Assembly: GCF_001723285.1 (NCBI RefSeq)
Contig: NZ_LPWG01000012.1
Coordinates: forward strand, 186,001 to 250,000
DNA: 64,000 nucleotides
Reading direction: 5' to 3'
Source: Methyloceanibacter methanicus
GTDB lineage: Bacteria > Pseudomonadota > Alphaproteobacteria > Rhizobiales > Methyloligellaceae
This document shows positions 38,177 to 63,737 of the stretch, in pieces (the first letter of the stretch is position 1; each line of letters begins with the position of its first letter). The translations under genes were made by a program, and so were the position numbers. The notes under the pieces were generated by a model, which worked only from the letters and a program-made list of their open reading frames with translations, ran no database searches and had not been told where the DNA came from.

Positions 38177-39085
38177 ATGCCAGAACTGAAAGTCAAAGGC
38201 GTCACCATTGTCGAGACGTTCGCGGAAGCCTTCCCGATGGTGGGGACGCGCGTCATCATCACCGCGCCGACCGCCGAATGGGCGATGATTTCCGCGCGCA
38301 CCATGACCGGGTTCGCGACTTCGGTGATCGCGTGCGGCGCCGAAGCCGGGATCGAACGGGTCGTGCCGAGATCCGAAACGCCCGACGGGCGACCCGGCGT
38401 TGCGGTGCTGCTGTTCACCATGGACGTGGACAAGCTCCAGACCCAGCTGCGCAATCGGGTGGGCCAATGCGTCCTGACCAGTCCGGGGTCGGCCTGCTAT
38501 GCGGGGCTCGAGGGCGAGAAGACGCTGAAGCTCGGCGCGTCCTTGCGCTTCTTCGGCGACGGCTGGCAGATGTCGAAAGTCATCGGCGGACGGCGCTACT
38601 GGCGCATTCCCGTCATGGGCGGCGAGTTCGTCTGCGAAGAGAAGACCGGTTTGACGACGAAGGCCGTGGGCGGCGGCAACCTTCTCGTGATCGGCAAGTC
38701 CCACAGCGCCGTGCTGGCCGCCTGCACGCGGGCGGTCAAGGCCATGGCGGAGGTTCGGGACGTCATCACGCCGTTCCCGGGCGGCATCGTGCGCTCCGGC
38801 TCGAAAGTGGCTTCGAAATACGCCGGCCAGATCGCCTCGACCAATCACGCCTATGCGCCCGGCCTCAAATGGCACGCGGATTCGGAGCTGCCGCCGAGCG
38901 CTGAAGCCGTGCTCGAGATCGTAATCGACGGCCTGACGGCCGATGCCATTCACGAGGCCATGCATGAGGGCATCCACGCGATCGCCAAGGGCGGGGCGCG
39001 GGAAGGCGTCACGCATATCACGGCCGGAAATTACGGCGGCAACCTCGGGCCCCATCACTTCCACCTTAAGGAGATTGTCGGGTGA
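38177..39085 (+). CDS. fhcD: Formylmethanofuran:H4MPT formyltransferase subunit
   Basis: 302 aa FhcD/Ftr, which moves the formyl group between H4MPT and the methanofuran analogue. Family segments are VETFAEAFPMVGTRVIITA, ARTMTGFATSVIACGAEAGI, CVLTSPGSACYAGL, KWHADSELPPSAEAVLEIVIDGL and THITAGNYGGNLGPHHFHL at the C-terminus. The ATG follows the fhcA stop by one base and its own stop overlaps the fhcC start. Confidence 0.97.
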   Translation: MPELKVKGVTIVETFAEAFPMVGTRVIITAPTAEWAMISARTMTGFATSVIACGAEAGIERVVPRSETPDGRPGVAVLLFTMDVDKLQTQLRNRVGQCVLTSPGSACYAGLEGEKTLKLGASLRFFGDGWQMSKVIGGRRYWRIPVMGGEFVCEEKTGLTTKAVGGGNLLVIGKSHSAVLAACTRAVKAMAEVRDVITPFPGGIVRSGSKVASKYAGQIASTNHAYAPGLKWHADSELPPSAEAVLEIVIDGLTADAIHEAMHEGIHAIAKGGAREGVTHITAGNYGGNLGPHHFHLKEIVG

Positions 39086-39885
39086 GCGCGCTTTGTTTCG
39101 AGCTCAAGAGACGGACTGAGCAGCGGCTTGATCTGTCGCCGTTGGTGCCGGCGCGCCTGGACGGTCTGAACCGCAAAGAGATCGAGTCGCTGTCGATCGC
39201 CACGACGCGCGAGGCGCTCACCGTCGGCGATGCCTTCAAGGTGAAGGGCAGGGACGTCCAGACCCTGCACTTCGTCGGCACCGACGATCGCTGCGACAAG
39301 ATCGGCGCCAAGCTGAAGGGCGGCGAGATCGTGGTCGAGGGCGATGCGGGCATGTTGCTCGGCGTGCAGATGAAGCGCGGCAAGATCGCGGTCGAGGGCA
39401 GCGCGGGCGTGTCCGTGGGCGCAGCATGGCCGGCGGCGAAATCAGCGTCCGGCGTCATGTGGGCGACCAGGCCGGCGGCGTCGCGTTCGGCGAGACATTC
39501 GGCATGAGGGGCGGGTTCATCTCCATCGGCGGCGATGCCGGCGCCCTTGTCGGCGAGCGGTTGCGCCGCGGGCTCATCGTGGTCGGCGGCAAGGCGGGCG
39601 ACTACGCAGGCGGCCGTATGATCGCCGGCACCGTTCTGCTCCGGGGGCGGCGCCGGCCGCTACGCGGGCTACGGCAACCGGCGCGGCAGTTTGATCTTGG
39701 CCGACAAGCCGCGGCACCTCCTGCCCACCTATGTGGACAGCGGCGTGATGGAGTTCGACTATTTGCGCCTCCTGGAAACGTGGCTGCGCGGCCAAGGCAT
39801 GCGGATTCGCCTCGGCGCCCGCGCGCGCCGGCTCATGGGCGACATGGCCGTTCTGGGCAAAGGGGAAATGCTGATCCTCGACTGA
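39082..39885 (+). CDS. fhcC: Formyltransferase/hydrolase complex subunit C (two compensating frameshifts)
   Basis: FhcC, the beta-helix subunit related to FmdC/GltB C-terminal repeats, about 267 aa once repaired. The GXXGXXXG-like repeats run through three frames. These are GGEIVVEGDAGMLLGVQMKRGKIAVEGSAG, then GEISVRRHVGDQAGGVAFG with FISIGGDAGALVGERLRRG, then SLILADKPRHLLPTYVDSGVMEFDYLRLL. One base is missing at about 39418-39425, and one extra G lies in the five-G run at 39643-39647. The two errors cancel, so the stop at 39883-39885 is in the restored frame. The start overlaps the fhcD stop. Confidence 0.88.
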
Positions 39886-39983
39886 CGCGAGGCGGCAGGC
39901 ACTCACGAGCCGCACTTGACGCCGGATCGGGGCTTCTCCTTTATGCTTGAGGTTTCAAGCTCTTTCGCCTCGCGCATTGAATA

Positions 39984-41806
39984 ATGACGTCTTCGCCCTT
40001 TGTCCTTCTCGACGACAGCCTTACCTCCGGTGAGCGCAGCCTGCTGTTCGAATCGGCGGAAGAGATCGTCCGCGTCGACCGGCCGGAGGACGTGGAGGCC
40101 GGGCTTCAGCGCATTTCCGATGGGCTCGCGCGGGGTCTCCATGCCGCCGGCTTCTTCGCCTACGAGCTGGGCTATTGCCTGGAACCGAAATTGGCGGGAC
40201 TGCTCCCCGAGAAGCGCGCGGTGCCGCTGTTCTGGGTGGGGCTCTACGGCCAAGCCCGGAGAATGGGCGACGAGGCGGTCCGGCACTGGCTCGACGCGCG
40301 GGGCGGGGCGGGGCACGCGAAAATCTCGAACCTGACGCTGTCCTGGAGCCGCGAGGCGTATGGGCGCGCCTTCCGGGCAGTCCAGGACTACATCGCGGCC
40401 GGCGACGTCTACCAGATCAATCTCACGCAGAAATATCTGTTCGACTTCGAGGGTGACCCCACAGCGCTCTACGCCGGCCTAAGACGGAGACAGCGGGTGG
40501 CCTATGGCGCTCTGATGGAAATGCCGGAGCTGTCCGTGCTCTCGCTCTCGCCCGAGCTGTTCTTCCGGCGCGAGGATCAGCAACTCAGCACGCGGCCCAT
40601 GAAGGGCACCGCGCCACGGGCCGGACGCCGCGCGAGGATGCGCGGCTCAAGACCTGGCTCGCCATGGACGAGAAGCAGCGTGCGGAGAACCTGATGATCG
40701 TGGATCTCCTGCGCAACGATCTCGCCCGCGTGTCGCGGATTGGTTCGGTGGAGGTGACGGACCTGTTCACGGTCGAGACCTATCGCACCGTGCATCAGAT
40801 GACGTCTGGAATTACCTCGGAGCTGCGCTCGGACATGGAGCTCGCCGACATGCTCCGGGCCCTGTTTCCGTGCGGGTCCATCACCGGCGCGCCGAAGGTC
40901 CGGGCGATGGAGATCATCCGCGAATTGGAGAAGGAGCCTCGGGGCATTTACACCGGGGCCATCGGCACCATCGCGCCCTCGGGGGAATGCCAGTTCAACG
41001 TCGCGATCCGTACGGCGGTGCTGTCGGGCGGACGCGGCGAAATGGGCATCGGCGGCGGCATCGTCGCCGACTCGAAGGAAGACTCCGAATACGCCGAATG
41101 CCTCCTAAAGGCCCAGTTCCTCACGGAGTCCGTCGGCCCGTTCGAACTCATCGAGACGCTGCGCTGGCAGAGCGAGCGCGGCTACCACCTGCTGGAGCGC
41201 CACCTCATGCGCCTTCAGGCCTCTGCCGCTCATTTCGGCTATCCCTTTTCGCGCGACGCCGTCCTTGCGGCGCTGGACGCGGAGGCCGCAACGATCGAGG
41301 CGCCCGTGGCCATGGTCCGGCTCCTCCTGTTCGAGGATGGGACCGTCACGGTCAGCGCGCGGGAGATCGCGTTGCCGACCAAGGATACGGTCTGGCGCTT
41401 CGTCATCTCGGACCTGCGCGTCGACGAGAAGGATCCCTTCTTCTATCACAAGACCACGCGGCGGCAGTTCTACGACCGGGAGATGGAGCGGCAGAAGGAC
41501 CTCACGGGCTGCGACGAGGTCGTGTTCCTCAACATGCGCGGAGAATTGACGGAAGGGACGCGGACCAATCTGTTCGTCGAACGGGACGGACGTTTGTTCA
41601 CGCCCGCGCTCTCCTGCGGGCTCCTGCCCGGGACGCTGCGGGAGGAACTGCTCGACTTGCCGCGGGCGGCCGCGAGCGAAGCGGTTCTGACGGAGGCCGA
41701 CTTAAGGGACGCGGACCGCCTCTATCTCGGCAACTCGGTCCGCGGTCTCGTTCGGGCCGAGCTGTTGCAGGCGGCCGGCAGTCCCAAACCGGCACTTGCG
41801 GACTGA
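39984..41806 (+). CDS. pabB: Fused aminodeoxychorismate synthase I / aminodeoxychorismate lyase (frameshift)
   Basis: About 607 aa after repair. The N-terminal PabB part (chorismate-binding) contains AAGFFAYELGYCLEP, VYQINLTQKYLFDFEGD, STRPMKGTAPR, then NLMIVDLLRNDLARV and GSITGAPKVRAMEIIRELE. The C-terminal PabC part is a PLP fold-type IV lyase: HLLERHLMRLQASAAHFGYPF, FLNMRGELTEGTRTNLFVE and GLLPGTLREELL. Together they make 4-aminobenzoate, needed for folate and as the arylamine in H4MPT. One G is missing at 40619-40621 between GTAPR and the TPREDARLKTW segment. It is downstream of fhcC by about 100 bases. Confidence 0.9.
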
Positions 41807-50489: not shown

Positions 50490-50625
50490 CCGGACCGGCG
50501 GTCGGCGCGTTCGTTCCGCCGATGTGGCGGTAAGATGTGACGGTAAATTGGCTCCCCGGGCCGGCGTGCCCCGGGCAAGAAATATCAACGGGTTAGAGTG
50601 TCAAACCCCGCTATCGGCGCTCATT

Positions 50626-54406: not shown

Positions 54407-56333
54407 GCACGTTTCTCAAGGATCCTGAGATGGCTGCGCTGGAGGTCATGGCGTCTGTGCTGCCGCCGGCGCATCACCGGACCTAAACGCGTGGGCGGAA
54501 GATCACGTTGTCTTCGGAAACGAAAGTCCGCGACCTGGGCCCTACCGCCGGGATAGCTTTCCCTACTTCGAACGGGTTTTGGATTGCTTGTCGCCCGAAC
54601 ACCCTTCGCGGATCGTCACGATGATGGGGTCGGCGCAAATCGGGAAGACGACGCTCGCGCAGGTGTTTCTCGGAGGCTGCATGGATCTCGCGCCGTGCGA
54701 TATGCTCATGGTCCACCCTACGCATGACAATGCCGTTCGGTGGGCACGGTCGAAGTGGGCAAAGATGCGTCGTCAGTCGCGGGCGCTTCAGCGCGTTTTC
54801 GGTACCGCAAAGTCGCGCGACGCCCGGGACACTGTTCTTTACCAGGAAGAGCGGTTTGGCCGAGGCAGTCTGCTTATTTCCGGTGCCAATTCGCCGGCAA
54901 GCCTCTCGATGGTTTCGACACAGCGTATTGTCGAAGATGATCTATCAAAATGGGAGCCCAATGCCGCCGGTGATCCCGAGCGACAGGCAGATAGCCGGGC
55001 AAGCGCTTTTGACTGGGCAAAGATCGTCAAGCTGTCGACACCGCTCTACGCGGACACGTGTCGTATCACGCGAGCATTTAAAGCCGGGACACAAGAGCGG
55101 TGGCACGTGCCGTGCCCGCACTGCGGGCACCATCAACCGTTGGAGTGGTCTAACTTCCAGGCGAACATCGATCCGGCGCGGCCTGACGAGGCCTGCTTCA
55201 GTTGCGTTGCCTGTGGCGGGCTGATTGAACACAAGCACAAGACCGATATCGTCGCTCGAGGATACTGGGTCGCCGAGAACCCGGGCGCTCGCGAGCCGTC
55301 ATTTCACATCTGGCGTGCTTACTCGCCGACTCGAGACTGGGCGTCGATCGCGCATGAGTGGTTGCAAGCCGAGGGCGATCCGCATACAGAGCAGGTATTC
55401 TTCAATGACGTTCTGGGTCTGCCCTACGAGCGCGCTAGCGAAGCGCCGCCTTGGCAGGCCATCCGCGACCGGGCTGAGGAAGAGGGGCATGATCGGGGAA
55501 CGATTCCGCCCGGCGGACTCATTCTCACCGCGGGCTGCGATTGCCAGGGAGACCGAGTCGAGGTTCACATTAAGGCCTTCGGTTCCGATCTTCGCCGTTG
55601 GACTGTCGACTACGCAGTCATACCGTTCCCCATCTGGGAACAGGCCTGCCGCGAGACCTTGGATAAACTCCTCACAGAAACTTGGCGCGACGCCTTCGGT
55701 AATCGCCGCGGGCTCGACCTCCTGGCGATCGATGGCAATGCATATACAAAGGATGTTTTCGCTTGGGCCAAGCGCCATCCCTGGTCGAGAGTGATCGTCA
55801 CGCGGGGTGCCAAGTCTGATCAGGCGCCTCCGTTGGTTCTGACGAAGACCGAACGGAAAGCCGACGGTAAAGTCCGGCGCGCCCAGAAGCGCTTCTATAA
55901 TGTCGGCGTGAGTGGCCTGAAGGTGTCGCTCTACCAGCAGCTCAAGAAGGCCGATCCTTTGGCGCGTGGATATTGCGGCTATCCCAAAGGGCTGAGCGAA
56001 GAGTTTTACCAGCAACTCACCGCCGAAGTTCGCGTTACGGAGACTGACCGGTTCGGTTATCCACGATCGATCTGGAAGCTGCCCTCTGGTATGCGCAACG
56101 AGGTGCTCGACACGGAGATCTACGCCGAGGCCGCAGCGATCCACCGGCACTGGTACGGCTTCACGCCAGACCAATGGGATCGCCTACGGGCGGAGCGCGA
56201 GAAGCCGCGCCAGGAGGGGACACCTGATATGTTCGATGACCTGGACCGCGCCGCAGCGCATGCGTCTGCCCCGAAGGAAAAACCAGCCGAGCGTCCCGGC
56301 GTTATCAAGTCGAAGTGGATGAGCCGGAACTAG
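54403..56333 (+). CDS. Terminase large subunit, GpA type (frameshift near N-terminus)
   Basis: About 643 aa after repair. From ATG 54403 the first frame gives MSTFLKDPEMAALEVMASVLPP. The second continues DLNAWAEDHVVFGNESPRPG and FPYFERVLDCLSPEHPSRIV. One base is missing at about 54470-54478. The ATPase has the MGSAQIGKTTLAQVFLG Walker A (GpA type) and RIVEDDLSKWEP. A zinc-binding module (CPHCGHHQPLEW ... CFSCVACGG) and the nuclease region (LTAGCDCQGDRVEVHI; LLAIDGNAYTKDVFAW) follow. It translocates DNA into the prohead. The last 29 bases overlap the convergent gene. Confidence 0.9.
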
Positions 56334-56994
56334 TGCCTTGCGCACTTGCTGCCTGTTCCATGCTTTGTCGTTGCGCGGGAGGAAAGACCATCGGTGACCA
56401 TCCAATCGCTTGGCCCAGTGCATCCCGCCATTTCACGCAATCAAGTGCGTGCCCGCCGGAACAAGAAACCTTAAGCTCGTGAGCTGCCTCCTTCGCAGGC
56501 AAGGCGGACAGCCACTCAATTTGCCCAGCATCGATACGAATCTCTCGCGCCAAAGTATAGAGCTCTTCGGATTCCTCCGCCGATAACGCTACGAGGTCTC
56601 CAGGCTGATTGGCGAACGATGGAACAGGGAACGGTGGTAACGGCACCGACTGGAGTGGAAAGCCGAGGTCCGAGTTCACGATCCGTGCAAATTGCTGCGC
56701 AAGGTACTCCATCTCGTAGGCGAGGCGCATCTTCGCCGCTTTCTTCGCTACTTCACGATCGTCGTTGGCGAGGCTCTGTTCATTGGCAATCTGTCGGTCA
56801 GCCGCAAGCAAGACCAGCGTGGCACCGACGAGCGCCAAGATGCCGGCGATTAGGGTCTGCCACTCCTTGATGGCATCAAGCCCTAGTGCGGCGACGGCTA
56901 GACAGATTACAAGCGTGAGCAGGAACGGCAGGAGAAACGTGCGGTCGAAGAAGCGCATGCGAGCCGACTCCTCACTCGGACAGCGATTGTTCAT
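56305..56994 (-). CDS. Membrane protein inserted in the phage structural operon (moron candidate)
   Basis: 229 aa, on the strand opposite to the phage structural genes. Two adjacent N-terminal membrane helices (FLLPFLLTLVICLAVAALG and WQTLIAGILALVGATLVLLAA) are followed by a long soluble, partly coiled region with acidic character and a C-terminal stretch containing two cysteines (VSCSGGHALDCVKWRD). No family recognised. It overlaps the next minus-strand gene by 23 bases, so they form a two-gene unit. Placement and strand fit a lysogen-expressed accessory (moron) gene; function unknown. Confidence 0.7.
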   Translation of the reverse strand: MNNRCPSEESARMRFFDRTFLLPFLLTLVICLAVAALGLDAIKEWQTLIAGILALVGATLVLLAADRQIANEQSLANDDREVAKKAAKMRLAYEMEYLAQQFARIVNSDLGFPLQSVPLPPFPVPSFANQPGDLVALSAEESEELYTLAREIRIDAGQIEWLSALPAKEAAHELKVSCSGGHALDCVKWRDALGQAIGWSPMVFPPAQRQSMEQAASAQGTSSGSSTST

Positions 56995-57280
56995 GAGCTG
57001 CGAGCGCTATTTGGACTCTCCCAAGCGCCAATTCCAATTTCGCATCTGCCTCGCTTCGATCACAGGAGCTGCGCTCGAAACTTCGGGCGATTGTCGCTAG
57101 CCGAGAAATCTGCTCTCCGACATTGCCGAACGTCCCGGAAAGTCTCGGCCGGAGCTGTTCGCAGTGCCGACGGAGGTGCCGCGCTGCAGAACCTGAAACG
57201 TCTCCCTCCAACTCACCGGCTATAGCAACGATGCTAGCCACCTCAGTTTTTAGAGCGTCAAGACTGATCGCGTTCAGCAT
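56972..57280 (-). CDS. Small helical protein, partner of the phage membrane protein
   Basis: 102 aa from ATG 57280 (MLNAISLDALKTEVASIVAIAGEL); a TTG at 57349 would make 125 aa but lies within an inverted repeat. The sequence is helical (LETEVASIVAIAGEL-type heptads, RHCEQLRPRLSGTF, ADAKLELALGRVQIALAAHEQ) with two cysteines and no recognised family. Its end overlaps the start of the membrane protein gene, indicating joint expression. Two operator-like inverted repeats lie just upstream. Confidence 0.6.
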   Translation of the reverse strand: MLNAISLDALKTEVASIVAIAGELEGDVSGSAARHLRRHCEQLRPRLSGTFGNVGEQISRLATIARSFERSSCDRSEADAKLELALGRVQIALAAHEQSLSE

Positions 57281-57322
57281 GTCCGCACCTGGCTGTATGG
57301 TGTCTGTTTCACGTTCAACAAT

Positions 57323-57373
57323 TTGCGAGAAAAGTTCGCAAATTGCCAAGCGCGTTCTTCGCGTTTTCGCGAA
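57323..57373. promoter_or_regulatory. Two inverted repeats upstream of the minus-strand phage pair
   Basis: TTGCGA-7-TCGCAA at 57323-57341 and TTCGCG-TTTT-CGCGAA at 57358-57373, sharing a TTsGCGA core. They sit between the minus-strand pair and the divergent gene at 57500, where a regulator controlling both directions would bind. Confidence 0.5.
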
Positions 57374-57894: not shown

Positions 57895-58209
57895 ATGGTG
57901 GTTGACTTGGCAGATCGACCAAGGAGCAGATTACTCAAGTGCATGCGTAAGAAGGCTTCAAAAATCGCAGCGCGGCGTGGTCACAAATTGTCCACTTGGC
58001 GGCGCACTCATGCTTTCCGGTTCACGGCAACATGTGAACGTTGCGGTGCCCGCGTGGAAGTCACGAGCTGGACACACACGGCTGTTCAGGCCCAACGCGC
58101 GCTTGATGCGGGGATGCTCGTTGTTAAGGATACCGATCCCCATTCAACCGACGAAGACTTTATCGTTGGCCTTGGTGAAGCGCTGGCCACCAACTGTCGG
58201 GGTGGGTGA
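57895..58209 (+). CDS. Hypothetical phage protein with a CxxC motif
   Basis: 104 aa with a basic N-terminus (RSRLLKCMRKKASKIAARRGHKL) and a possible half zinc site in FTATCERCGARVEVTS. The acidic C-terminus (DTDPHSTDEDFIVGL) follows. Small phage proteins with such CERCGA motifs are common, but the role is unknown. An overlapping frame from 57884 is less protein-like. Confidence 0.5.
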   Translation: MVVDLADRPRSRLLKCMRKKASKIAARRGHKLSTWRRTHAFRFTATCERCGARVEVTSWTHTAVQAQRALDAGMLVVKDTDPHSTDEDFIVGLGEALATNCRGG

Positions 58210-58339
58210 TGCGGCTTTTCCTTGGGCAACGTTATTGCAGGCCGTGTGATCACATTGAGCCACGCATCCTGGGTGTCAGTGAGCCGCAGGCGTATAGCCG
58301 CACCGGGACCTAAGCCGCAGTCTTATGGTCGCCAAAGCG

Positions 58340-58363
58340 CCGTCTCTTCGGGGACGGTTTTTT
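58340..58363 (+). terminator. Rho-independent terminator with UUCG loop
   Basis: CCGTCTC-TTCG-GGGACGG followed by TTTTTT. It separates the small phage genes from the operator-controlled operon that begins at 58453. Confidence 0.85.
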
Positions 58364-58376
58364 GTCCACAGGTGCG

Positions 58377-58426
58377 TAGGTCATCTTGACCCACCCCCTC
58401 CCGTTGTGCTAGGTCAACATGACCTA
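58377..58426 (+). promoter_or_regulatory. Twin operator and promoter of the phage operon
   Basis: TAGGTCA-ACA-TGACCTA (58410-58426) is a perfect 7-bp inverted repeat. TAGGTCA-TCT-TGACCCA (58377-58393) is the same site with one mismatch. The centres are 33 bases apart, three helical turns. The upstream copy contains TTGACC, a good -35, and the downstream copy lies at the expected -10 position 17 bases later, so a bound repressor would block the promoter of the gene at 58453. Confidence 0.65.
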
Positions 58427-58452
58427 TCAGCGTGTTGGAAGGGAATCATGCG

Positions 58453-58944
58453 ATGAAACTGTTGAACCGCGTGGAGTGGGGGCAACTCACTGACCTGGAT
58501 CCTGAGGCGATAAATTCACTTCGTCGCCGTGATCAGCTTCCTACAGTGCCAGGTCCGACCATGGGGGATCGATATACACCCCTCAGCGCACTGCTCATGG
58601 AAATCGCGAATGAGTTTGCTAACAAGCAAGGTATAAGCCGGACCGTCGCCGCCCAGCATGCGTCGCGTGGTTTTATGATCGATCAGCGATGGGCGGATGT
58701 AGCGGCGACGAGCAACGACCTCTATCAAGGGGGCAACGTAGCCGAAGAGATATTCTTCGCGGTCATCGAGTTGCCCGGGAAGAAGCCCCGCGCGGTTTGC
58801 GACACTCTCACCGAGATTGTGGCGGCCAATCCTAACCCAACTCGGATCACTCTCTGCAATGTCACTCGCGCCGCCTTCGAAATGCGAAAGCGTGCCGCGC
58901 GGCACAAGATCGATCTCGGTGACTTTTGGGGCTCTACCAAATGA
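58453..58944 (+). CDS. Phage protein, possible MerR-like autoregulator
   Basis: 163 aa. The first 60 residues (WGQLTDLDPEAINSLRRRDQLPTVPG ... DRYTPLSALLMEIANEFANKQGISR) resemble a MerR-like or excisionase-like winged helix, followed by an unknown C-terminal part. It is the first gene behind the twin TAGGTCA operator, so autoregulation is plausible (inference). The ATG at 58453 is chosen; TTG 58432 is in frame. It overlaps the next gene by four bases (ATGA), which leads into the head genes. Confidence 0.6.
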   Translation: MKLLNRVEWGQLTDLDPEAINSLRRRDQLPTVPGPTMGDRYTPLSALLMEIANEFANKQGISRTVAAQHASRGFMIDQRWADVAATSNDLYQGGNVAEEIFFAVIELPGKKPRAVCDTLTEIVAANPNPTRITLCNVTRAAFEMRKRAARHKIDLGDFWGSTK

Positions 58945-59183
58945 ATCGCGAGCGCCCCACTGACGAAGAACTTCTCGCCTATATGAAGTCGCCGACTTTT
59001 CGCCGGCGTTCCGCTCGCATGCAGAAAGTCGTATCCGACAAATGGAGCCGCGGTGAGCAGGTTTCATTCGATGAGATTGCTGACGGCTTGAAGCTTCCTC
59101 TGGATGTTGTGGTTGGTGGTTTCGCTCATTCCATGAGCAAGACTTTTGGCGTGGAGCTGGTGCCCGTGGGACGGGTGCAATGA
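58941..59183 (+). CDS. Small hypothetical phage protein upstream of the portal gene
   Basis: 80 aa (MNRERPTDEELLAYMKSP ... VSDKWSRGEQVSFDEIADGLKLPLDVVVGGFAHSMSK), probably helical. The second half could form a helix-turn-helix. No family assignment. Start and stop overlap both neighbours by four bases, a strong sign of a genuine coupled gene. Confidence 0.65.
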   Translation: MNRERPTDEELLAYMKSPTFRRRSARMQKVVSDKWSRGEQVSFDEIADGLKLPLDVVVGGFAHSMSKTFGVELVPVGRVQ

Positions 59184-60593
59184 TCCTCGATAAGCTCGTA
59201 GGCCTGTTCAGGGGCGGAGATCGAAAGCCTTCCGAGCGGACTTACGATGCCGCGGCGCCCGGACGCGTTGGCGCGGGACGCCGGAAATTGCAGCGCAGCT
59301 CTCATCACTTCATGCCGCGCGCGGCCCGATCGCCCGGCGAGCGCGCTACGTGGTCGCGAACAACGCATACGCCGCCTCGGGCGCGAAGCCTGGATCTCGG
59401 CGCTATGCGGCACCGGCATCAAACCGCAGTCCGGTCACCCTGACCCGAACGTGCGGGAACAGATCAATTTGGCATTCGAGCGCTGGACGGACGAAGCCGA
59501 CGCAGACGGATTGCTCGACTTCTATGGGCTCATGGCCCTGGGAGTTCGGCGCATGGTTGTCGATGGCGAATCGTTTGCTGCTTTCGACCACAGCGACCCA
59601 AACGTACCTCTTCGACTTCGGTTGATCGATCAAGAGCAGGTCGACTCGAGCAAGACGCAAGCACTCTCCGGTGGCGCTTCGATCGTCCAGGGCGTCGAAG
59701 TCGATGAGACCGGGCGACGTTTGGCCTATCACCTTTTTAAGAAACGTCCAGGTCTCACCTTCGATTGGAACACCGAAACGGTGAGAATGCCGGCGACTGA
59801 GATGTTGCACCTGTTCAACCCCGTGAGCTCCGGGCAGGCCCGCGGGCTCAGTTGGTATGCACCCGTGTTGCTCCGCCTGGCCGACCTCGATGCATCGCAT
59901 GATGCGCAGCTAGTTCGGCAGAAGATTGCAGCATTGCTCACAGGGTTCATCATAGACATCGAGGGTGATGGCGGCTCTCTCGCCGGCACTGCCGGACTCG
60001 ATGGTATCTCGGAGACAAGCCTCGAGCCCGGCGAAATGCGAACACTCAAGCCGGGCCAGGATGTGCGCTTCTCGGAACCCGCGCGCGTCGGGGCAGAGGT
60101 CATCGACTTTCTCAATATCACGGCACGCGAGATCGCCTCGGGGCTCGGCGTTCCTTACGCCGCGATGACCGGTGATCTGTCAGATGTGAATTACAGCTCC
60201 ATCCGCGCAGGCCTCGTGGACTGGCGGCGGCGGGTCGAGGCACTGCAATACAACGTCATCGTTTATCGCTTCTGTCGCCCGGTCTGGAACCGGTTTGTTA
60301 CCGCGGCGGTGCTCTCCGGCCAGATCTCTGCGCCAGGCTTCGAGCGCGACCCAGCACCATATCTTTCGGTGAACTGGATCACGCCACGTTTCGATTGGGT
60401 GGATCCACTGAAGGACTGCAAAGCTGAGATCGCCGCCATCGCCGCGGGTCTGATTTCACGGCGCCAGGCGGTTGCTGCACGAGGCATCGACATCGAGGAC
60501 CTGGACCGTGAGATCGCCGCCGACCGAGACCGCGCCAAGAAGCTAGGGCTCGCCTTCGGTGACATCGAACCAGGCCCGGAGGTGCAAGCATGA
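59180..60593 (+). CDS. Phage portal protein, lambda family (two frameshifts)
   Basis: About 471 aa after repair; forms the ring through which DNA enters the head. From ATG 59180, MILDKLVGLFRGG ... TYDAAAPGR, then in a second frame RWRGTPEIAAQLSSLHAAR and ARRARYVVANNAYAASGA. In a third frame follow EAWISALCGTGIKPQSGHPD and the rest, including DQEQVDSSKT, VRMPATEMLHLF and YSSIRAGLVDWRR. Bases are missing at 59262-59267 and 59380-59386. The pattern matches the lambda gpB family. It overlaps the next gene by four bases. Confidence 0.88.
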
Positions 60594-62485
60594 CGTTGGC
60601 CGCAACCCAAGCACCAAACTTGCCAGACGGGCACACCGAAGCGGAGATCTACACGCGACGCGCTCCAGAACACACGTCGAGTTGGGATCCGGAGACGCGC
60701 ACCTTCGATGTGGTCTTCTCGGCCGGCGCACCCGTCGAGCGATGGGACAGCCGCGGCGCCTTCACAGAGTTTCTTGATGTGGCCGGGTTCACGGGGGCGG
60801 AAGACGCGCCAGTGCTCGACCATCATCGGCGAGACAGTCTTGAGGCCGTGCTTGGCTCGGTCGTTGAAGCTCACACGGTCGGCGGGAAAGCCCACGCGAC
60901 TCTCAGGCTGTCTCGCCACACCCCCTTGCTGAGCGCCTCGCCAATGAACTTGCCGACGGAAACCGCTTCGGCGTTTCGGTCGGCTACACGGTTGAAGAAT
61001 GGAGAGAGAAGACCGACCCGAAGACCGGACGGCGCGAGAAGATCGCGACACGGTGGACGGTGCGCGAGATCTCCATCGTTTCGGTTCCCGCTGACCGTCA
61101 GAGCACCACACGAGGAAAAGCTATGACGGACAACCCCGCTCCGGCCAACGAGCCGGAGAACCCGGCAACGCCGGCACAACCGGCCCCCGCGCGGAAGCAA
61201 ACTCGACGGCCGTCGCGGAACGGGCGACCGTCAACACGGAGATCCGGTCTATCGCCCAGGTCGCCAATCTCGATCAAGCCTGGATCGATCAGCAGATCGA
61301 TGCAGGTGCCACTGTGGAGCAAGCGCGCACCGCTGCTTTCGAGACGATGCGGACACGTTCTGCGCCCGCGGCGCAGGTTCGAACCACGACAGCAGAAGTG
61401 ATCTCCGACAACGATGATCCGGAGCGCGCGCCAGGGTGATCGGTGAGGCCTTGTTCGCGCGCGCTCACCCGGCACACCAGCTTTCGGAGCCGTCGCGGCA
61501 GTACGCCTACATGACCACGCTCGATATCGCGCGCGACTGCCTGCGGACCCGTGGACTTTCCTTCACGGGGTTGTCGCCGGCGAAAGTCGTGGAGCGTGCG
61601 CTGCATACGACAAGCGACTTCCCGCTCATCCTAGGAGATGCGGTCGGGCGAACCTTGCGTATGGGGTATCAGGCGGCGCCGTCTGGTTTGAAGCGGGTCG
61701 GCCGCAAGACGACAGCTCGGGACTTTCGCGACAAGCGTCGCCTGGCCCTTTCCGAAGGACAGCGGCTCGAGAAGGTCAACGAGGCAGGCGAGTTCAAGTC
61801 CGGAACGTTCGTGGAGGCACAAGAGATGTACCGCCTCCTAACCTACGGCAAGGTGTTCGGCATCTCACGCCAGGCGCTCGTCAACGACGATCTCGGCGCC
61901 TTCACCGACCTGTCGCGACGGCTCGGCCAGACCGCCGCCGCCACGGAGTCCGCGCTCTTGGTCGAACTTCTCACCGATGGGGGCGGGCTGGGCCCGGCCA
62001 TGAGCGATGGAAAGAAATTCTTCCATACAGGGCATGGGAACCTTTCCTCCGTCGGTTCCGCCCCCAACGTTGAATTTCTATCCAAGGCGCGCACGGCATT
62101 GCGTAAGCAGACGGGTCTGCAAGGCGAGAACATCAGCGTCACGCCGAAATTCTTCGTGGTCCCGGCTGAGTTGGAGACCGATGCGGAGAAGCTGCTCGCC
62201 CAGATCACCGCAACCAAAGCCGACGATATCAATCCGTTTGCCGGCGCATTGCAGCTCGTGGTCGAACCCCGCTTCACGGATGCGCTGCGCTGGTATGTGG
62301 TTGCGGATCCGGCCGAGATCGACGGACTCGAATACGCCTATCTGGAAGGCGAGGAAGGGCCGCAGATCGAGACCAAGGCGGGCTTCGAAGTCGATGGCGT
62401 GCAGATCCGCGTGCGGCTCGATTTTGGGGCAGGTCTCGTCGACTGGCGGTCTTGGTATTCCAACCCCGGCAACGCCGGCGAGTGA
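60590..62485 (+). CDS. Fused prohead protease / major capsid protein (three frameshifts)
   Basis: About 632 aa when repaired. The N-terminal protease module (ETRTFDVVFSAGAPVERWDSRG; DAPVLDHHRRDSLEAVLGSV with a His; AERLANELADGNRFGVSVGYTVEEW; VREISIVSVPADRQ) is an HK97-type U35 peptidase. An acidic, Pro/Ala-rich linker (SDNDDPEARAR) leads to the capsid part (GEALFARAHPAHQLSEPSRQYAYM ... GFEVDGVQIRVRLDFGAGLVDWR). Breaks lie at 60921-60925 (run of five C), 61186-61194 and 61421-61426, each one base lost. Protease-capsid fusions of this type occur in other alphaproteobacterial prophages. Confidence 0.86.
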
Positions 62486-62495
62486 GGCTTAGCTG

Positions 62496-62711
62496 ATGGC
62501 CACCGACCTTGCCACCCTTCGAGCCTTCCGGGATGCGCTGCTTAAGGCGCGTTTTCAGGGTAGGCGATCGATCCGATTTGACGATCAGGAGGTCGCGTAC
62601 CGTTCTGACAGCGAGCTTGCCGCGGCCATTGCCGACTGCGAGTCGCGCATCGCGGCGCTCGAAGGGCGCAAGGTCAAGGCCGTCCGTTTCAACACGTCGA
62701 AAGGACTGTGA
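62496..62711 (+). CDS. gpW-like head-tail joining protein
   Basis: 71 aa helical protein (DLATLRAFRDALLKARFQGRRSIRFDDQEVAYRSDSELAAAIADCESRIAAL) matching the gpW head-tail joining family, which is needed to stabilise packaged DNA and attach tails. It lies ten bases after the capsid gene. Confidence 0.85.
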   Translation: MATDLATLRAFRDALLKARFQGRRSIRFDDQEVAYRSDSELAAAIADCESRIAALEGRKVKAVRFNTSKGL

Positions 62712-63542: not shown

Positions 63543-63737
63543 ATGACGAATATGCATGAACGAGCGATCATCACCGCCGTCCGCGATGTGCCCGTGCCGC
63601 TTGGGGTGATGGGCTCGAAGTTCAAAGGTTTCACCACCGGGCTCCCTTCGCGGGAACATCTGTGCGCGCTAGCGGCTGGTGCGGAGACCTTCAAGGGCTC
63701 CAAGCCCATCGCGCTCCCTTGGGGGATGGCGAAGTGA
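63543..63737 (+). CDS. Small hypothetical phage protein
   Basis: 64 aa (MTNMHERAIITAVRDVPVPLGVMGS ... AAGAETFKGSKPIALPWGMAK). No family recognised. Preceded by AGGAGGA, and the stop overlaps the GTG of the following gene, so it is likely translated. Position suits a connector or tail protein. Confidence 0.55.
   Translation: MTNMHERAIITAVRDVPVPLGVMGSKFKGFTTGLPSREHLCALAAGAETFKGSKPIALPWGMAK

Follow-up and report, generated by a model that had tools for sequence, protein, structure and literature searches.

The capsid operon of a small integrative element in Methyloceanibacter methanicus is rather likely to be driven by an autoregulated promoter, with the first gene of the operon coding for a 163-residue protein that would repress transcription via two palindromes lying over that promoter. 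The layout recurs in dozens of related small elements and is probably a conserved, built-in capsid switch. The element measures about 17.4 kb and is integrated at a tRNA-Asn gene; most of it is contained in the window, i.e. the whole stretch of 64,000 nucleotides that was analyzed. The features on which the argument turns are given below in window coordinates:

50549..50565, no strand: left attachment-site repeat TTGGCTCCCCGGGCCGG, with the other end of the element on contig C12 at ~253909, near tRNA-Asn
58339..58364, plus strand: Rho-independent terminator with a UUCG tetraloop, closing the upstream cargo unit (fold, consensus scan)
58377..58393, no strand: distal operator-like palindrome TAGGTCA-TCT-TGACCCA, whose right arm contains the -35 TTGACC
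58386..58391, plus strand: probable -35 box TTGACC (sequence; TTGAC enrichment at positional homologues)
58410..58415, plus strand: tentative, weak -10 TAGGTC with a spacer of 18 and an extended TGC (from the sequence alone)
58410..58426, no strand: proximal operator-like palindrome TAGGTCA-ACA-TGACCTA, over the expected -10/+1
58453..58944, plus strand: gene for the 163-residue MerR-like wHTH regulator, the first of the capsid operon (ORF, hhalign, relatives)
58941..59183, plus strand: ORF of 80 residues, ATGA-coupled and not gpW, with possible relatives at L063 and L142
59180..60593, plus strand: portal gene (phrog_21, 6.5e-85; ORFs), its frame broken near the 5' end, probably by sequencing indels
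61436..62485, plus strand: major capsid protein gene (phrog_4523)
62496..62711, plus strand: gpW-like gene, placed after the capsid gene instead of before the portal gene

The distal (TAGGTCATCTTGACCCA; 58377-58393) and proximal (TAGGTCAACATGACCTA; 58410-58426) palindromes are both exact matches to TAGGTCANNNTGACCYA, and the two TAGGTCA-N3-TGACCYA sites reported in an earlier note on this DNA are thus present as written. The twin-palindrome score of the 123 bp preceding the ATG of the 163-residue ORF was matched by none of 200 shuffles and by a single one of 274 control stretches, while across the whole window matches to TAGGTCANNNTGACCYA with up to three mismatches number 12, against 2.5 expected from shuffles. 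A search for the 17-bp site elsewhere in the element, which the earlier note had proposed, turned up no additional copy at 0-1 mismatch anywhere in it, right end included; in the whole genome at up to one mismatch, only two single sites, each with one mismatch, were found besides the pair. Given this absence of other sites within the element, the regulator appears to control only its own promoter there. The AGGTCA-N3-TGACCT of the proximal site (58410-58426) also matches, by coincidence, the textbook vertebrate oestrogen response element.

The regulator gene begins at the ATG at 58453, preceded by GGAAGGG, and is tied to the head genes by successive ATGA overlaps, first with the 80-residue ORF (58941) and through it with the portal gene (59180), in agreement with the earlier proposal that it leads into the head operon. 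By its position the 80-residue ORF was considered as a candidate gpW; it bears no resemblance to gpW, and the true gpW lies at 62496. ORFs of 66-86 residues with weak mutual similarity are found between the regulator and the portal in the window (58941-59183), at L063:4403-4663 and at L142:4637-4837.

On its own, the 163-residue protein recovers no Pfam, PHROG or PDB sequence match, the curated MerR_1 cut-off not being reached either, and its score with a MerR HMM does not exceed that of shuffles. Direct searches for relatives in phages, viral contigs, genome contigs and ~800 genomes of the class and order returned almost nothing; the first relative is WP_315844443, a 187-residue protein from a plasmid of Tardiphaga sp. 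709 (27% identity over nearly the whole length), and those beyond it were reached only by way of the capsid protein search described below. Among these, L149, L130 and L131 encode detectable relatives (E-values of 7.6e-5, 4e-4 and 5e-3, computed over a small set). A profile made of the 163-residue protein and WP_315844443 aligns in register with the helix-turn-helix and wing of MerR over residues 11-62: in hhalign comparisons with a set of MerR proteins drawn from the host genus it scored 22.8, as against a mean of 9.0 and a maximum of 17.6 for 150 column-shuffled profiles. Hence, the MerR-like N-terminus claimed earlier is borne out by profile comparison and not by Pfam; with neither a Pfam match nor a score with the MerR HMM on its own, the protein is by its predicted N-terminal winged helix MerR-like, and not a member of the MerR family. 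Single-sequence AlphaFold models were of low confidence (pLDDT 51 and 61), and a fold search with the first of them was uninformative, so that the predicted structures lend the assignment no support.

A capsid-profile search recovered 80 viral loci. Of these, 39 with a capsid identity of at least 51% and enough upstream sequence were counted, along with 19 of lower identity; the loci are not fully independent, as some may share ancestry or derive from metagenomes that overlap. For this count a regulator is defined by position and length (an ORF of 130-330 residues), with helix-turn-helix support for about half and with approximate starts. Such an ORF directly precedes the portal gene in 36 of the 39 loci; gpW precedes the portal in none of them and follows the capsid gene in 29. 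Among the lower-identity loci gpW precedes the portal in 14/19 and a regulator does so in 4/19, all four of which have gpW after the capsid gene. A regulator and gpW were never found together before the portal at one locus. A Pfam scan of 40 regulators recovered MerR_1 in 15 (best E-value 2e-7) and HTH_17 in 6. This genomic signature, with the regulator before the portal and gpW after the capsid gene, sets these elements apart from ordinary phages; in ordinary relatives gpW stands between the terminase and the portal.

Of the original observation, the promoter is the least secure component. Its placement just after a terminator held up: GCCGTCTC-UUCG-GGGACGGTTTTTT folds at -15.9 kcal/mol (z -4.0; 58339-58364), although a plain terminator scan finds as many terminator-like sites as by chance. 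Immediately 5' of this terminator is a 104-residue ORF (57895-58209) with a zinc-ribbon-like CERCGARVEVTSW stretch and no clear family. TTGACC (58386-58391), contained in the distal palindrome's right arm, is a fair to good -35. However, the -10 at this locus is poor and a sigma-70 consensus scan calls no promoter at the regulator start, so the claim that the twin operator covers the -35 and -10 of a promoter draws its support from the relatives. In these, 22 of 38 loci carry a TTGAC between positions -90 and +30 relative to where the regulator begins, versus 41 of 762 controls (5%; p=1e-16), its reverse complement being found in the same interval in 5 loci only, and near-consensus promoters are seen in L116 (TTGACA-N17-TAGATT), L131 (TTGACA-N16-TATTTT) and L130 (TTGACA-N17-CAGATT).

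These promoters also bear on the sign of the regulation. MerR-type proteins are often activators, and there is a small but real chance that the 163-residue protein activates its own promoter, and the capsid operon with it. The weak -10 of this locus is in keeping with such positive control, as is the precedent in Gram-negative PICIs of AlpA of EcCICFT073, which activates its own promoter (PMC6092414). Against it, the operators lie over the -35 and the -10/+1 and not over the spacer or on the upstream side, and the near-consensus promoters of several relatives, with their 16-17 bp spacing, would have no need of an activator. Classical MerR activation has the operator between the -35 and -10 with a spacer of 19-20 bp, whereas spacers of 16-18 bp, as found here and in the related promoters, suit repression. 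Together, the operators over the -35 and -10/+1, the spacer of 16-18 bp, the position as first gene and the uniqueness of the sites suggest autorepression that would also set capsid expression; the sign of the autoregulation is probably negative.

Palindromes accompany the regulator gene in relatives as well. The gene of the Tardiphaga relative is also preceded by twin palindromes, AGGGGGCG-N3-CGCCCCCT and TATGAAGGGGGC-N5-GCCCCCTTCATA, which differ in sequence from those in the window, lie 53 bp apart and are centered 26 and 79 bp before the ATG. The pair thus accompanies the gene while its letters change, as one would expect where the recognition helix of an autoregulator has diverged. In our element, L127, L130, L131, L116 and the sister element G306, twin palindromes 30-37 bp apart contain TTGAC within their distal member, with the pairs of L127 and L130 not individually significant against shuffles (p 0.075 and 0.175). 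The regulators of L116 and G306 form one homology cluster and their sites share a TGACA/TGTCGGAG-type motif, the copies being TTGACACACTGTCGGAG / TCTGACACAGTGTCGGAG and TTGACAACTCGTCAGAG / TCTGACATGTTGTCGGAG. Over the whole set of regulators the palindrome enrichment is moderate (p 0.02-0.03), with twin scores of at least 16 before 12 of 39 regulators versus 11 of 114 controls (p=0.003), and many positional homologues show no significant palindrome or clear pair. In our element, the centers (58385 and 58418) are 33 bp apart, or 3.14 turns at 10.5 bp, so the three helical turns of the earlier note hold at this locus; the relatives, with spacings of 30, 32, 35, 37 and 37 bp, rule out exact three-turn phasing as a rule of the family.

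It is improbable that the palindromes are bound by a different protein, be it a host regulator, a second regulator encoded by the element or the repressor of a helper phage, and that the adjacent gene is a mere neighbor. Palindromes of 17 bp are typical of many repressors, two single sites with one mismatch exist elsewhere in the genome, and binding by the 163-residue protein is itself a prediction; however, twin palindromes of another sequence precede the ATG of the Tardiphaga relative on an unrelated plasmid, the regulators of related elements vary together with their sites, and the element has no second gene that looks like a regulator. The uniqueness of the sites within the element, and their counterparts in the Tardiphaga relative and several positional homologues, thus speak for an autoregulatory operator that is specific to its own promoter and inherited with the gene, in line with the autoregulator of the earlier note, whose binding we infer. 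Even more remote is the reading that the protein acts mainly in recombination directionality, packaging or replication, with architectural or RNA-hairpin palindromes: although winged-HTH proteins such as RdfS act as excisionases (PMC11963761) and the twin sites can pair as one long RNA hairpin, the integrase and att site are ~8 kb away, the sites are at the promoter and not at att, and in several relatives a distinct small ORF, AlpA-like or otherwise, lies beside int.

Under autorepression, the reading that we favor, transcription from the terminase and cargo side would end at the terminator, and the capsid operon would start afresh from a promoter whose -35 falls within the right half of the distal palindrome and whose -10/+1 is under the proximal one. 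The predicted transcript would run from the regulator through the 80-residue ORF, portal and protease to the capsid gene. The 163-residue protein, which probably dimerises and has a MerR-type winged helix at its N-terminus, would bind both palindromes and block RNA polymerase, so that expression of the regulator and of the capsid genes would stay low, at a set level. This repression might be lifted by a helper phage, by replication or by an anti-repressor; the analogy with SaPI Stl makes a protein of the helper phage one candidate for the signal.

Two sister elements come from genomes of the same bacterial family: G306 (terminase 74% and capsid 77% identical) and G001 (capsid 58% identical; ~11.5 kb, without a tape-measure gene). 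Both have a different regulator gene, which directly precedes the portal in G306 and precedes a small ORF and the portal in G001. In G306 an inverted repeat with 17-nt arms overlaps a TTGACA before the regulator, and the G001 regulator is preceded by a perfect 28-bp palindrome, GTTAGGTGGAAAATATTTTCCACCTAAC (L063:3671-3698). Across the family, similarity between regulators is detectable (E<=1e-3) in only 33 of 600 pairs whose capsid proteins are at least 50% identical; replacement or divergence of the regulators is therefore far more rapid than that of the genes downstream of them. There is a little less than an even chance that a widespread family of such elements swapped the gpW gene at the operon head for a MerR-like gene that regulates itself through a promoter and a pair of operators of its own, and that regulator and operator diversify or are exchanged far faster than the capsid genes, which would make the unit a switch dedicated to the capsid, its recognition specific to each element and immunity-like.

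At the right end of the element, the core of the attachment repeat, GGCTCCCCGGGCCGG, recurs beside the integrase (L018:2781-3881), with the intact tRNA-Asn beyond. In order, the genes code for a primase-helicase, the small and large terminase, minus-strand cargo, the regulator unit, portal, protease, capsid, gpW, decoration and adaptor proteins, a tape-measure-like protein and the integrase; no lysis, tail-fibre or baseplate genes were recognised in the element. The earlier note spoke of a prophage; from this gene content the element instead resembles a small satellite with capsid genes, or what is left of a prophage, and not a complete phage. The frames of the portal (59180-60593) and head protease (60590-61401) genes are split, as are those of host genes at 39082-39950 and 39984-41806, which read like a formyltransferase subunit and pabB. 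This suggests sequencing indels in the genome rather than decay of the element, and we did not accept the frameshifts as the mark of a decayed prophage, given that nearby host genes look frameshifted too.

The closest parallel is provided by the cf-PICIs, which encode capsid and packaging genes and use the tails of helper phages (PMC10690885; PMC11389934). Like them, our element is small (~17.4 kb) and has integrase, terminase, portal, protease and capsid genes, and most of its relatives are without recognisable tail or lysis genes downstream. Unlike them, it keeps a tape-measure-like gene, with no other tail or lysis gene recognised and the G001 sister having none at all, and an HNH gene was not seen. 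In the literature searched, outside of which the original cf-PICI paper lay, a MerR-like first gene of a capsid operon was not described. Gram-negative PICIs have alpA or merR regulators (PMC6092414), and EcCICFT073 AlpA/MerR resembles the present case in being a satellite-encoded wHTH regulator that acts on its own promoter (PMC6092414). However, AlpA/MerR is presented in that work as the transcription regulator of the PICI and was studied on the alpA and int promoters, and AlpA is an activator (PMC6092414), whereas the gene described here heads the capsid operon and its layout suggests repression. The SaPI Stl/Rpr system may be alike in that a satellite uses a repressor, which a helper protein could remove to trigger expression; the divergent regulatory pair of Gram-positive PICIs has no equivalent in our element. 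Lambda CI/Cro shares the repeated 17-bp palindromes over a promoter and autoregulation, but here there are two sites and not three, 33 bp apart and before head genes, and the protein is MerR-like and not CI-like. We found no description in the literature searched of how satellites time their own capsid genes relative to the helper phage; a single, compact and conserved control point before the portal, with a predictable operator and an identifiable regulator gene, makes this timing question testable.

Minus-strand cargo lies between the terminase and the regulator unit both in the window (56305-57349; a membrane protein) and, at the same place, in L021:6598-9448, where a HicB-like protein accompanies a membrane protein. 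The ORFs at 63543-63737 and L018:205-1575 have nearly equal starts (MTNMHERAIITAV / MTDLHARAIITAV), as would result from duplication of the first part of the tape-measure gene. Finally, a second insert of ~1.8 kb (L018:3905-5828), which carries a 511-residue minus-strand gene, sits between the tRNA-Asn 3'-end repeat and the intact tRNA-Asn, and looks like a tandem integration at one tRNA.
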